Below, piece by piece: positions 1,688-6,673 of a stretch of DNA of 64,000 bases; the first letter of the stretch is position 1; each line of letters starts with the position of its first letter. Made by a program: the position numbers and the translations under genes. The notes beneath the pieces were generated by a model. The model was not told where the DNA came from, ran no database searches, and saw only the letters and a program-made list of their open reading frames with translations. Origin of the DNA: Silvibacterium bohemicum (GTDB lineage Bacteria > Acidobacteriota > Terriglobia > Terriglobales > Acidobacteriaceae); NCBI RefSeq assembly GCF_001006305.1, contig NZ_LBHJ01000012.1:656231-720230 (forward strand), in the 5' to 3' direction.

Positions 1688-4360
1688 ATGGCAGACGATC
1701 AGAACCCTCAGCTTCCCCTCGGCGACGGCAACAATGGCGATGGCCCCAATGGTTCGACCGGTCCCACCGGCGCCGCCAATCTCATTCCGATCAATATCGA
1801 AGACGAGATGCGCCGGTCGTACCTCGACTATTCGATGTCGGTCATCATCGGCCGCGCCTTGCCCGACGCCCGCGATGGGCTCAAGCCCGTTCACCGCCGC
1901 GTGCTCTACACCATGCACGAGATGGGCCTGCAGCATAACAAGAAGTACACCAAGTGCGCCAAGGTCGTAGGACAGGCCATGGGTGTGTATCACCCGCACG
2001 GCGACTCGGCCATCTACGACACGCTGGTGCGTCTGGCGCAGCCGTTCAGCATGCGCTATCCGGTGATCGATGGACAGGGCAACTTCGGCTCGGTCGACGG
2101 CGACCCGCCCGCGGCCATGCGGTATACCGAATGCCGCCTGATGAAGGTAGCCGGCGATCTGCTGGCCGACATCGAGATGGAGACCGTCGACTTCACGCCT
2201 AACTACGACGAGTCCACATTTGAACCTACCGTCCTGCCCACCCGTATCCCCAACCTCATCGTTAACGGATCGAGCGGCATCGCTGTGGGCATGGCGACAA
2301 ACATTCCGCCGCACAATCTCACCGAGGTTGTGAACGCCGCCATCGAGATGATCAATAATCCGCAGGCCGGCCTCCTCGAAGTGCTGAAGCACGTGCAGGG
2401 TCCGGATTTCCCGACCGGCGGATTCATCTACGGACGCAGCGGCATCGCGCAGGCCTACAAGACCGGCCGCGGCCGCTTCCTCATGCGCGCCAAGTGCGCC
2501 ATCGAGAACATGCCCCAGGGACGCCAGGCGATCATCGTCAGCGAGATCCCCTATCAGGTGAACAAGTCGAAGCTGATCGAGCGCATCGCTGCGCTGGTGA
2601 ACGACAAGATCATCGACGAGATCTCCGACGTTCGCGACGAGAGCGACCGCGACGGCATGCGCATCATGATCGAGCTCAAGCGCGGAGCCGAAGCACAGAT
2701 CGTGCTCAACCAGCTCTACAAGCACACGCAGATGCAGGAAGGTTTCTCCATGATCTTCCTGGCCGTGATTAACGGTCAGCCGAAGGAGCTTTCGCTCCCC
2801 GACGCGATCCGGCATTTCCTCGATCACCGCATCGATGTGGTGCGCCGCCGCACGGCCTATCAGCTGCGCAAGGCGCGCGAGCGTGAGCATATCTTGCTTG
2901 GCTACCAGATTGCGCTCGACCATCTCGACAACGTCATCAAGATCATCCGCGGATCGTCCTCCCGCGCCGATGCGCGCGAGAACCTCTTCCAGTTCTTCTC
3001 CGGACGCACCATCACCGTCCGCGATCAGGCTCTGGCGGGCGTCACGCTCGATCCGGCAAAGTACAACATCGATCCGGCGACCATCGTTACCGCCACGCTG
3101 ACCCTCAGCTACCGTCAGATCGACGCAATTCTCGAACTGCAGCTCTATCGCCTCACTCAGCTCTCGATCGACGAACTACTCAAAGAATTGGCTGAGATTC
3201 GCGAGCACATCGCCGAGTACGAATCGATCCTGGCTTCGGAGAAGAAGCTGCGCGCTGTCATCGTCAAAGAGCTCGAAGCCGTCAAGAAGGAATACGGCGA
3301 CGAGCGCCGCACGCAGATTCTGGATGAGACCGCCGAGTTGCAGCTCGAAGATCTCATCGCCGATGAGCAGGTTGCCGTCACCGTCTCGCACTCCGGCTAC
3401 CTGAAGCGGACGCCTATTTCCACCTACCGTCAGCAGCGCCGCGGCGGCACCGGACGGCTGGGCATGAAGACGCGCGAGGAAGATTTCGTGCAGCAGCTCA
3501 TCATCGACTCCACGCACGCCTACCTGCTCTGCTTCACCAATACCGGACGCGTCTACTGGCTCAAGGTATACGAGGTTCCGGATGTGGGAGCGGCCGGCAA
3601 GGGCAAGTCGATGGCCAGCCTGCTCAACCTGCAGCCCGGCGAAAATGTGCGCACCATCCTTGCCCTGCGCAATCTTGAGGAAGAAGGCAAGTTCATCTTC
3701 TTCACGACGCGCAAAGGCACGGTCAAGAAGACGCCGCTGAAGGACTTCTCTAACGTTATGGCGCGCGGCATCATTGCCATCGGCATCGACGACGAGGATG
3801 AGCTGGTCGGTGTTCGCATCACCGACGGCAACCAGGTTGTCTTCATCGCCACGCACGACGGCATGGCCATCCGCTTCGACGAAAACGACGTTCGATCCAT
3901 GGGACGAACCGCCCATGGCGTGCGCGGAGTCGATCTTGGCAAGAACGATTACGTGGTGGGCATTGCCGTTACTCCGAAGGAGCGCAGGAAAGATGGGGAA
4001 GGCATTGACTGCGCCTGCCTGATTCTCAGCGTCACCGACAACGGCTTCGGGAAACGTACTGACGTCGATGAGTACCGTCTCCAGACGCGCGGCGGCAAGG
4101 GCGTCATCAACGTCAAGACCACCACGCGCAACGGCAAGGTCACGTCGATCCTACTCGTCGACGACACATCGGAGCTGGTGGTCATCAGCCAATACGGCAA
4201 GATCATCCGCATTGACACCAAGACCATCCGCGCCGCGGGCCGCTCGACGCAAGGCGTCAAGCTGCTCAACCTCGAGGAAGACGACAAGGTCGCCGCAGCC
4301 GTCGTCATCCCGCCCGAGGAAGCCAAGATCGAGCCGGAGAACGGAACGCTGCTGCAGTAA
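1688..4360 (+). CDS. gyrA: DNA gyrase subunit A
   Basis: This is the breakage-reunion subunit of DNA gyrase, which introduces negative supercoils with GyrB. The 890-residue product has the expected length. The catalytic tyrosine is Tyr146 in AAMRYTECR. The GyrA box QRRGGTG is at residues 583-589, which separates it from ParC. A C-terminal beta-pinwheel domain follows. The quinolone-determining positions are Ser107 and Asp111, equivalent to E. coli Ser83 and Asp87, so no common resistance substitution is visible. The N-terminal 34 residues form a Gly/Asn/Pro-rich extension before the conserved core. gyrB is not nearby. No clear Shine-Dalgarno sequence precedes the ATG. A strong terminator follows at 4378. 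Confidence 0.98.
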
Positions 4361-4543: not shown

Positions 4544-4957
4544 ATGCCAACATCCGTAGAAACCGTGAACCTCGCAGACGCGCGCCGCATTATCGCCGCT
4601 GCCGAAAAGAAAGCCGCCGAGATCGGCCAGCCTATGAACATTGCTGTTGCTGACGCGGGCGGCAATCTCGTCGCCCATGTCCGCATGGACGGGGCATGGA
4701 TCGGCTCCGTCGATATCTCTATCAAGAAGGCCTTCACTTCGCGGGCCTTCGACATCGCCACCAAGGATCTCGCCCCTCATTCGCAGTCTGGCAGCCAGTT
4801 CTTCGGCATTCACGCATCGAACGATGGAAAAATCATGATCTTCGCGGGCGGCATTCCGCTGAAGAAGGGCGACAAGGTGATCGGATCCATTGGTGTTAGC
4901 GGTGGATCGGGCGATCAGGACCACGCGGTAGCCGAAGCCGGCGCAGCGGCTCTCTAA
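4544..4957 (+). CDS. GlcG/HbpS family heme-binding-like protein
   Basis: The 137-residue protein matches the GlcG/HbpS (DUF336) family throughout. It has the typical alpha-beta layout, an N-terminal ADARRIIAAAEKKA helix, the IAVADAGG strand-turn, and a Gly-rich C-terminal GSIGVSGGSGDQD turn. Characterised members bind heme or respond to redox stress, but many are of unknown role. It is preceded by a good ribosome binding site (AGGAGA, 5 bases before the ATG). No signal peptide is seen, so it is probably cytoplasmic. The next gene starts shortly downstream on the same strand. Family assignment is firm; heme binding here is inference. Confidence 0.88.
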   Translation: MPTSVETVNLADARRIIAAAEKKAAEIGQPMNIAVADAGGNLVAHVRMDGAWIGSVDISIKKAFTSRAFDIATKDLAPHSQSGSQFFGIHASNDGKIMIFAGGIPLKKGDKVIGSIGVSGGSGDQDHAVAEAGAAAL

Positions 4958-5037: not shown

Positions 5038-5748
5038 ATGACCCGCCCGGAAACCGTGATGGTGGAGAATCGCTCTGGCGCAGAGCGGCATGTCTCACGC
5101 CGTCGCGACATCTTCGAACTCACTCTCGGTTATGGTCTGATCCTCGCCGTCATTTGGACGCCCAATCCCGCGCAGCGCATCCTTTATTGGATTGCCATCA
5201 TTGTTCTGATTGCGGTGACTGTTCTGCGCCGTGAAAAACCGGCAGCGCTCGGACTCACCGGCGAAGGATTCCTGCGTTCGCTATGGGTCGTGGGCCTTGC
5301 CGCATTGCTCGCCGCGATTTCCATCGCTGTTGCGTGGCACGCTCATACCCTGCATCGTCACTTGGGCCGCGTTTCTCTCGACTTCCACTTCACCGGATAC
5401 ATCCTCTGGGCTCTGGTGCAGCAATTTCTCTTGCAGGATTATTTCCTCGGCCGCTTCCTGCGTCTATTCTCCAATCGATGGGTCGCGGCAGCCGGAGCCA
5501 CCGCGCTCTTCACCCTCGCGCATATTCCCAATCCGATCCTCGTTGTCCTCACGCTGATATGGGGATTCATCGCGTGCGCTTTATTTCTGCGCTATCGCAA
5601 CCTCTACACTCTGGGAATCGCCCACGCCATCCTGGGAATCGGCGTGGCCATCACAGTGCCAAACCACATCCAGCGGCACATGCGCGTGGGGATCGGCTAT
5701 CTCCACTACCATCCCCCAGCAAGATATCTTCATCCCCATCAGCCCTGA
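5038..5748 (+). CDS. CPBP-family membrane protein lacking the catalytic Glu pair
   Basis: A polytopic membrane protein of about 236 residues in the CPBP (CAAX protease/bacteriocin-processing) fold. Motif 2, F-T-L-A-H (His162), and motif 3, HAILG (His196), are present. Motif 1, which is EExxxR in active enzymes, reads QQFLLQ (Gln128-Gln129). Both catalytic glutamates are therefore replaced by glutamine and the arginine is lost, so the protein may be inactive as a protease or use different chemistry. The frame is open back to a TTG at 4966; ATG 5038 or ATG 5059 are more plausible starts. It converges on a canonical CPBP gene only 25 bp away. Confidence 0.75.
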   Translation: MTRPETVMVENRSGAERHVSRRRDIFELTLGYGLILAVIWTPNPAQRILYWIAIIVLIAVTVLRREKPAALGLTGEGFLRSLWVVGLAALLAAISIAVAWHAHTLHRHLGRVSLDFHFTGYILWALVQQFLLQDYFLGRFLRLFSNRWVAAAGATALFTLAHIPNPILVVLTLIWGFIACALFLRYRNLYTLGIAHAILGIGVAITVPNHIQRHMRVGIGYLHYHPPARYLHPHQP

Positions 5749-5773
5749 TGCGGACGATATCGGCGTTGCGGGC

Positions 5774-6673
5774 TCACCGCAGCAACACGCCCCATATCGT
5801 ATCCACGGACGCATGCGTAATCGCAGATGCACTCGAGCGCCGCTGCTTACTCCAGGCTCGCCCATAGAAGATGCCGGCGATGGCCGCAAGAAGCACATAG
5901 CGCCAGTTGAACGAAGTCGTCCGTTTATTGAAATGCGCCAGCCCAAAGACAATGGACGTGATGATCAACGCCGCCGTCCGTCCCAGCCTGCGCTCCAATA
6001 GATTCAGCATCCAGCCGCGAAAGAAGATCTCCTCGGGCAGCGCGACCACAAAGAAGATGCCTATCCAGATCAGAGGCGCCATCCAGGCTCGCTCCAGGTG
6101 GCGATGCCAGTGGAGAAATCCCACCGCTAAACCGAGCGAGAGGGCGATCGGCACGTAAAAGGCCCATTCGCGAAGGCCAATCTTCCAGTCATCCCGCCGC
6201 AGACGCAGATCGAAGCCTACGCCGGTCAACCGCCGTATGATGAGAAACGCGTAGAGTCCTGCATCCAGCAGAAGAATCTTATTGAACGCATCCAGGTGCC
6301 GTGGCCAGGCGTTGTCAAACCAGCGAAGGTCGACGGTCAGCCCCAGCGTGAGCAGGACAACGAACTCCAGCCAATGCCCGCGCTGCTCCGGATCCAGCCT
6401 TGTGACCAGCATCAGGACCCCGGCGATCAACACCGGCAGAAATGCATAGAGCAAGAACCACTTCCAATGAAACATTCCCAGCGGAGCGGTGACGACGGTA
6501 TAGGGCACGCAGAGCAGCGCTGGCAATGCCAATTGGATTGCGGACGAAGCCGCTTTGCGGTCAGAGGGCCATGCCTGTAGTCGTTCGCTGTTGAAGCCGA
6601 ACCACAGCACCGGAGCCAAAGCAAGGGCACCACCGGCTACTGTCGTCCATGCAGGTAATACTAAAGTGGTCAC
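5774..6673 (-). CDS. CPBP family intramembrane glutamic endopeptidase
   Basis: Membrane protein of 299 residues with about eight hydrophobic segments. It carries all three motifs of an active CPBP/Abi/Rce1-type protease: PEEIFFR (Glu214, Glu215, Arg219), FGLAH (Phe243, His247) and HASVD (His287, Asp291). Known relatives process prenylated proteins or bacteriocin leaders, or give bacteriocin self-immunity; the bacterial substrate is usually unknown. It is convergent with the degenerate paralogue at 5038-5748. No bacteriocin-like peptide gene was seen beside it. Confidence 0.88.
   Translation of the reverse strand: MTTLVLPAWTTVAGGALALAPVLWFGFNSERLQAWPSDRKAASSAIQLALPALLCVPYTVVTAPLGMFHWKWFLLYAFLPVLIAGVLMLVTRLDPEQRGHWLEFVVLLTLGLTVDLRWFDNAWPRHLDAFNKILLLDAGLYAFLIIRRLTGVGFDLRLRRDDWKIGLREWAFYVPIALSLGLAVGFLHWHRHLERAWMAPLIWIGIFFVVALPEEIFFRGWMLNLLERRLGRTAALIITSIVFGLAHFNKRTTSFNWRYVLLAAIAGIFYGRAWSKQRRSSASAITHASVDTIWGVLLR

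Follow-up and report, generated by a model that had tools for sequence, protein, structure and literature searches.

A conserved glutamine-variant CPBP protein and its canonical CPBP neighbour in Acidobacteriota

Two convergent CPBP genes and their motifs

The window, the 64,000-nucleotide stretch of Silvibacterium bohemicum DNA that was analysed, contains two genes for CPBP-fold membrane proteins which meet tail to tail. One carries glutamines at the catalytic glutamate positions (the Gln protein); the other has the canonical glutamate pair (the EE protein).

5038..5748, plus strand: gene for the Gln-variant CPBP protein, 236 aa; conserved pseudo-protease candidate
5419..5436, plus strand: motif 1, QQFLLQ, in place of EExxxR; Q128, Q129 and Q133 of the 236-aa protein
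5749..5773, no strand: gap of 25 bp separating both stop codons
5774..6673, minus strand: gene for the canonical CPBP protein (EE partner, presumed active), 299 aa; EEIFFR, FGLAH and HASVD

The Gln gene runs from an ATG at 5038 to a stop at 5748, with alternative starts at ATG 5059 or TTG 4966; the EE gene runs from a GTG at 6673 to a stop at 5774. Pfam family PF02517 matches both proteins above its cut-off of 22.4 bits (27.8 bits for the Gln protein and 68.8 for the EE protein), and a gap of 25 bp lies between the two stops. The convergent CPBP pair described in an earlier sequence-only reading is therefore present as described. PF02517 also matches all 39 Gln-family members of the alignment used here at E<=0.001.

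In CPBP proteases the first Glu of EExxxR is the catalytic base. The EE protein has the full set of catalytic residues, as the same reading had claimed: EExxxR (EEIFFR), the motif-2 His (FGLAH) and HxxxN/D (HASVD) are all present, and E214, E215, R219, H247, H287 and D291 are invariant among 44 aligned rows. The reading was also correct for the plus-strand protein. Its motif 1 is VQQFLLQ, without Arg, so EExxxR is absent; both His are kept (FTLAH and AHAILG), and the Asn of HxxxN is replaced by Gly (HAILG). The motif-2 His is invariant (H147 in the 39-row alignment).

The sequence-only reading would fail if a glutamate motif lay elsewhere in the Gln protein. Inspection of the whole window protein finds no EE pair. 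When the two families are compared profile against profile (E 3.5e-6, probability 88, 18% identity), QQ falls on EE and His on His; therefore the glutamates have truly been replaced.

The genome of the window has ten PF02517 loci. Seven have EExxxR and three deviate: the Gln gene, one locus with QGILFR and one with EIALLR. A change in motif 1 is not rare in itself.

Conservation, neighbourhood and co-occurrence

Public contigs were scanned with two peptide patterns, one containing Q[QE] and the other consisting of the MRVG tail. Among 143 relatives found, the best 80 loci were kept, nearly all of them labelled Acidobacteriaceae or Acidobacteria; motif 1 was read by pattern in 78 of these and by eye in two (L110 and L112). 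The first catalytic Glu position is Gln in 80 of these best 80 loci; at the second, 73 have Gln and 7 have Glu. As many as 46 loci match the MRVG tail pattern only, yet these also carry Gln. The first Gln is encoded by CAG 64 times and by CAA 14 times in the 78 loci read by pattern, a mixture expected under selection for the residue.

The Gln protein was also sought in genomes. Among 100 relatives, 33 have a match at E<=0.001, including one (G055) that reaches only 8.6e-4 over 57 residues. Of 297 genomes sampled from the phylum, 51 give a match to a 28-row Gln profile, five of them weakly, with E above 1e-9 (G114, G178, G206, G256 and G373). Four weak matches that were inspected (L220, L221, L222 and L226) carry PQ[EG] or EE and belong to other CPBP types; L223 gave no hit in this inspection. 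Forty loci were then picked by hand, of which 32 are stronger hits in the phylum beyond the window's family and 8 come from relatives. Gln occupies the first position in 39 of the 40 (the exception is L173), and Glu occupies the second in five, among them L187 (QE). Random loss in a single genome, a possibility raised by the sequence-only reading, is ruled out by Gln at the first position in 80 of 80 and 39 of 40 loci.

The 39-row Gln alignment, which omits 8 of the 40 fetched loci, L173 among them, has six invariant columns: W25, Q113, F143, H147, P149 and G203. The first Gln is one of the six. A C-terminal stretch, MRVGxGY, is largely conserved in Gln proteins. The second His is replaced by Gln in some family members (L015, L019, L027, L029 and L030).

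A quick tree search was run on 92 CPBP cores over 139 columns. A branch with SH-aLRT 96 sets the 53 Gln proteins, L173 included, apart from all other rows, and another with SH-aLRT 97 does so for the 24 EE partners; neither clade contains any of the 8 other CPBP proteins from the window's genome. The suggestion that QQxxxQ defines a conserved clade thus stands as regards the clade and needs correction as regards the motif, which in the 80 loci is Q[QE]xxx followed mostly by Q and sometimes by L or N. The rows nearest to the Gln clade are of the PQ[EG] type, joined by long branches with weak support. One of these is found in the window's genome (L039, at G000:C16:744818-745096); it is a second CPBP type with Gln first, YPQGILFRAFLLHRYR and an EHALYG motif, and L220, L221 and L227 are of related types. 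One genome (G223) holds two pairs, and in each the sub-clade of the Gln member corresponds to that of the EE member.

An EE homologue lies convergent to and downstream of the Gln gene in 61 of the 80 loci, within 300 bp in 59. EExxxR is present in 60 of these 61 EE genes. The exception, in Granulicella S190 (L063:10633-11000, the same place as L231), is a decayed remnant of which only N- and C-terminal pieces can be aligned; the Gln gene beside it is intact. At L102 the contig ends within the EE gene.

The open frames overlap tail to tail in 54 of the 61 paired loci, by at least 30 nt in 37; the window has its 25-bp gap. Overlap lengths recur among the pairs from L041 to L120, with 94 nt seen 19 times, 76 nt 14 times and about 15 nt often. 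The likely cause is that the Gln gene takes its stop codon from sequence which, read on the opposite strand, forms conserved codons of the EE gene.

No other cluster of neighbours exceeds 12 of the 80 loci, a count which is a lower bound because flanks are short in some loci. Synteny with conserved flanks is ruled out on this count as an explanation of the pairing. In the window the pair lies downstream of gyrA and a GlcG/HbpS-like gene (1688-4360 and 4544-4957); a gyrA-like neighbour recurs in at least 10 of the 80 Gln loci, given the short flanks.

Outside the window's family, an adjacent pair is found at 6 of the 32 fetched phylum loci, in five genomes which all belong to one family (code f27). 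These pairs are divergent (L153 and L154) or in tandem with the EE gene upstream (L152, L155, L158 and L162). Among the fetched relatives, the pair is in tandem at L183-L185 (EE downstream) and L186 (EE upstream) and convergent at L187. A rate of 11 of 40 adjacent would be unfair because the loci were chosen by hand and five of the 8 relatives were already-known adjacent pairs; 6 of 32 is the fair figure. In the 26 relatives with both genes, 14 pairs are adjacent (10 convergent and 4 tandem) and 12 are not, some of these lying at contig ends. Neighbours in distant families give no general hint of the function of the Gln protein.

Long frames in distant loci raised the suspicion of a Gln-EE gene fusion. 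This was rejected, since the EE protein occurs in none of the frames read. In three cases (L135/L151, L143/L159 and L148/L182) the frame continues past the Gln domain and ends in a C-terminal region that looks propeller-like. FG-GAP matches to these regions are weak and below Pfam cut-offs in L151 and L159, and there are none in L182. By eye L225 resembles the propeller-tailed frames, and the frames of L166 and L174 are comparably long.

The 19 loci without an EE neighbour represent 18 genomes; in 14 of these an EE protein is encoded at another place, always with EExxxR and at E below 1e-96. The EE protein is split over two contigs in G399 and has a stop inside the N-terminal match in G401. 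No EE protein is found at 1e-10 in G390, G395 and G403, and G391 has only a weak match. An EExxxR partner is present in 74 of the 79 genomes behind the best 80 loci. Genome counts for the two proteins are as follows, in the order both, Gln only, EE only, neither.

100 relatives, with G055 dropped: 26, 6, 15, 53 (p 2e-8)
297 phylum genomes, EE at E<=1e-25: 20, 31, 6, 240 (p 1.5e-12)
The phylum genomes with the five weak Gln genomes removed from the Gln count: 20, 26, 6, 245
One genome per genus within the window's family: 12, 6, 6, 28 (p 6e-4)
Outside the window's family, taken as 267 genomes (the listing gives 266): 9, 25, 5, 228 (p 4e-6)

These p values come from Fisher tests in which kinship is handled only by the genus and family splits, with no species tree, and the samples overlap. 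Co-occurrence of the gene pair, proposed as a check by the sequence-only reading, is positive by adjacency (61 of 80 loci), by the share of genomes with an EExxxR partner and by the two-by-two counts.

Each protein is also found alone. At the strict threshold of E<=1e-25, 31 of the 51 phylum genomes with a Gln protein have no detected close EE protein. The same applies to 6 of 32 near relatives; a profile search finds none in three of these and matches of E 1e-6 to 3e-8 in the other three. Conversely, 15 of 41 relatives have the EE protein without the Gln protein. Profile searches of 15 EE-only genomes, made up of 12 from the 15 relatives just counted plus 3 more, found no full Gln protein. 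A 39-residue frame at a contig end in G082, ending RLRVGPGYWWWEVPR, is probably the tail of a Gln protein. The four remaining profile hits in EE-only genomes are weak; the hits in G080, G086, G088 and G300 fall on the EE gene itself. Given the Gln-only genomes, the EE-only genomes and the Granulicella S190 remnant, the partnership is therefore not obligate everywhere. Overall, the sequence comparisons indicate that selection maintains the Gln protein and that it tends to occur together with a single EE clade.

A plasmid protein search for relatives outside the phylum found nothing. One record titled Rhodanobacteraceae (CAJCHN010000112.1, L053) carries an acidobacterial pair. The title is probably wrong because its genome falls in the window's phylum sample; G404, titled Rhodanobacteraceae, belongs to that sample.

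Predicted fold and known relatives

The AlphaFold models of the Gln protein (pLDDT 88.9, pTM 0.84) and the EE protein (pLDDT 92.8, pTM 0.89) are confident. Q128 is placed in helix 114-143 of the Gln model, just as helix 196-230 of the EE model holds E214 and E215. In VIA-align 2, the Gln model aligns with SpdC (6u0o; Z 14.3, rmsd 3.6, 195 aligned) and with Rce1 (4cad; Z 13.2, rmsd 3.5, 187 aligned), followed by a row with Z 6.0. The tool cautions that Z 13 is within reach of helical models lacking clear kin, but the SpdC and Rce1 rows, both of CPBP fold, stand well above the rest. The EE model scores Z 13.2 and 10.3 against the same two structures. Foldseek ranks 4cad first for the Gln model, but with E 0.11 and probability 0.99. 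PDB sequence searches with the Gln and EE profiles found no relative. The Gln protein is thus predicted from its model to have an Rce1-like helical CPBP fold.

The Gln protein resembles the glutamic CAAX protease Rce1 and PF02517 proteins in fold, Pfam match and motif-2 His. It differs from them in having Q[QE]xxx followed by Q, L or N in place of EExxxR, and the Asn of HxxxN is not kept.

The top structural match, SpdC/LyrA of Staphylococcus aureus, is nearly tied with Rce1. SpdC is presented in passages of PMC7387801 as a CPBP protein without key catalytic residues, and portions of PMC5854430 describe its binding of histidine kinases; it thus acts through partners, one of which is SagB according to the title of PDB 6u0o. 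Its known partners are a hydrolase and kinases, unlike the second CPBP protease considered here. The NCBIfam SpdC model NF052643 (SdpC) does not match the window Gln protein, and no NCBIfam family does so at E<=1.

LnsB of S. aureus is a further CPBP-like protein with diverged catalytic motifs; it requires a second protein, LnsA, and can be needed for lipoprotein acylation (PMC7387801). Its partner differs in being an NlpC/P60 enzyme encoded elsewhere, and LnsB was compared with the Gln protein by description.

The gamma-secretase subunit APH-1 is related to CPBP proteins; the relevant sections of PMC7387801 give it no proteolysis of its own and a proposed role as substrate presenter to an intramembrane protease. 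APH-1 (PDB 5a63 chain C) aligns with the Gln model at Z 5.0 over 126 residues, a weak match level with unrelated rows. Presenilin, the protease partner of APH-1, is of the aspartyl type. The iRhoms are reported to be catalytically dead kin of an intramembrane protease and to act as regulators; they differ in having the rhomboid fold and occurring in animals.

Excerpts of PMC11980579 describe MrtX as an EExxxR CPBP protease which sorts MYXO-CTERM proteins, and name EExxxR and HxxxN as conserved motifs. The EE partner weakly resembles such myxosortases (MrtX, MrtS and Mrt_core). The NCBIfam models MrtS and Mrt_core give weak matches in 20 of 20 EE-partner members (best E 8.8e-14), and the window EE protein falls far below the family cut-offs (40.4 against 130 bits for MrtS, 37.1 against 100 for Mrt_core and 27.6 against 75 for MrtJ).

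A proposed non-cutting partner and its alternatives

The reading which is modestly favoured here is that the Gln gene encodes a conserved, catalytically dead CPBP protein which works with the EE protein, its preferred active relative. Retention of Gln in many genomes and the frequent company of the EE protein suggest a non-cutting partner and not a decayed gene. The sequence-only reading had proposed a pseudo-protease or a distinct class beside an active paralogue; as far as sequence comparison reaches, the single Gln clade and its linkage and co-occurrence with the EE protein lend support to this proposal.

In mechanistic terms, the Gln protein would be unable to hydrolyse peptides as a glutamic protease. 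It would bind a substrate, a lipid or the active protease within the membrane, and would present or gate substrate, or stabilise the enzyme, for the EE protein, by analogy with the APH-1 proposal and the iRhom reports. Envelope proteins with a membrane-embedded C-terminus may be the substrate; this is a guess, made because the EE protein weakly resembles myxosortases. A stronger form of the idea is distinctly more tentative: the pair would be a two-subunit glutamic intramembrane protease with a co-evolved, dedicated pseudo-protease subunit, a bacterial counterpart of APH-1 or iRhom in many Acidobacteriota.

Other explanations account for parts of the data. The Gln protein might be an enzyme of other chemistry, in which Gln and His form a different site, or a lipid-handling membrane protein, sharing a pathway with the EE protease without binding it. 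Conservation of Gln itself, beyond mere loss of Glu, fits this explanation, as do the invariant motif-2 His, the distinctive conserved MRVGxGY stretch, the many genomes that hold the Gln protein without the EE protein and the precedent of LnsB; however, no known catalytic set is kept, given that some members have Gln for the second His and that motif 1 lacks its Arg, and this explanation is considered somewhat unlikely. It is a good deal less probable that the Gln protein is still a protease, either because Gln is deamidated to Glu or because the second position and His are enough, as in the QE members. Such activity would make sense of Glu at the second position in 7 of 80 members and of the invariant motif-2 His, but a first position which is never Glu in 80 loci, with Gln at both positions in 73, argues against it.

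Descent offers a further explanation, in which an old duplication left two copies that stay together through synteny, with no joint function, and the Gln copy has drifted. That PF02517 matches both proteins and that adjacent pairs in the window's family are convergent would be expected from such a history. Separate clades and distant profiles (18% identity), flanks shared by 12 of 80 loci at best, adjacency in several arrangements and strict retention of Gln all speak against it, and it is improbable, if very slightly less so than residual protease activity. A catalytically dead partner of the EE protein remains the preferred reading.

The CPBP proteins without catalytic residues considered above (SpdC, LnsB and APH-1) are single cases with partners of other folds, and literature searches found neither a Gln-variant CPBP clade nor a CPBP-CPBP pair. 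The present case is a conserved Gln clade with a preferred, presumably active partner of the same fold, for which natural, split, doubled and partner-less cases are available. Judging from the motifs, naming members of this conserved class as proteases on the basis of PF02517 is probably wrong as regards activity. The pair offers a way to test whether an active CPBP protease is served by a pseudo-enzyme of its own fold.
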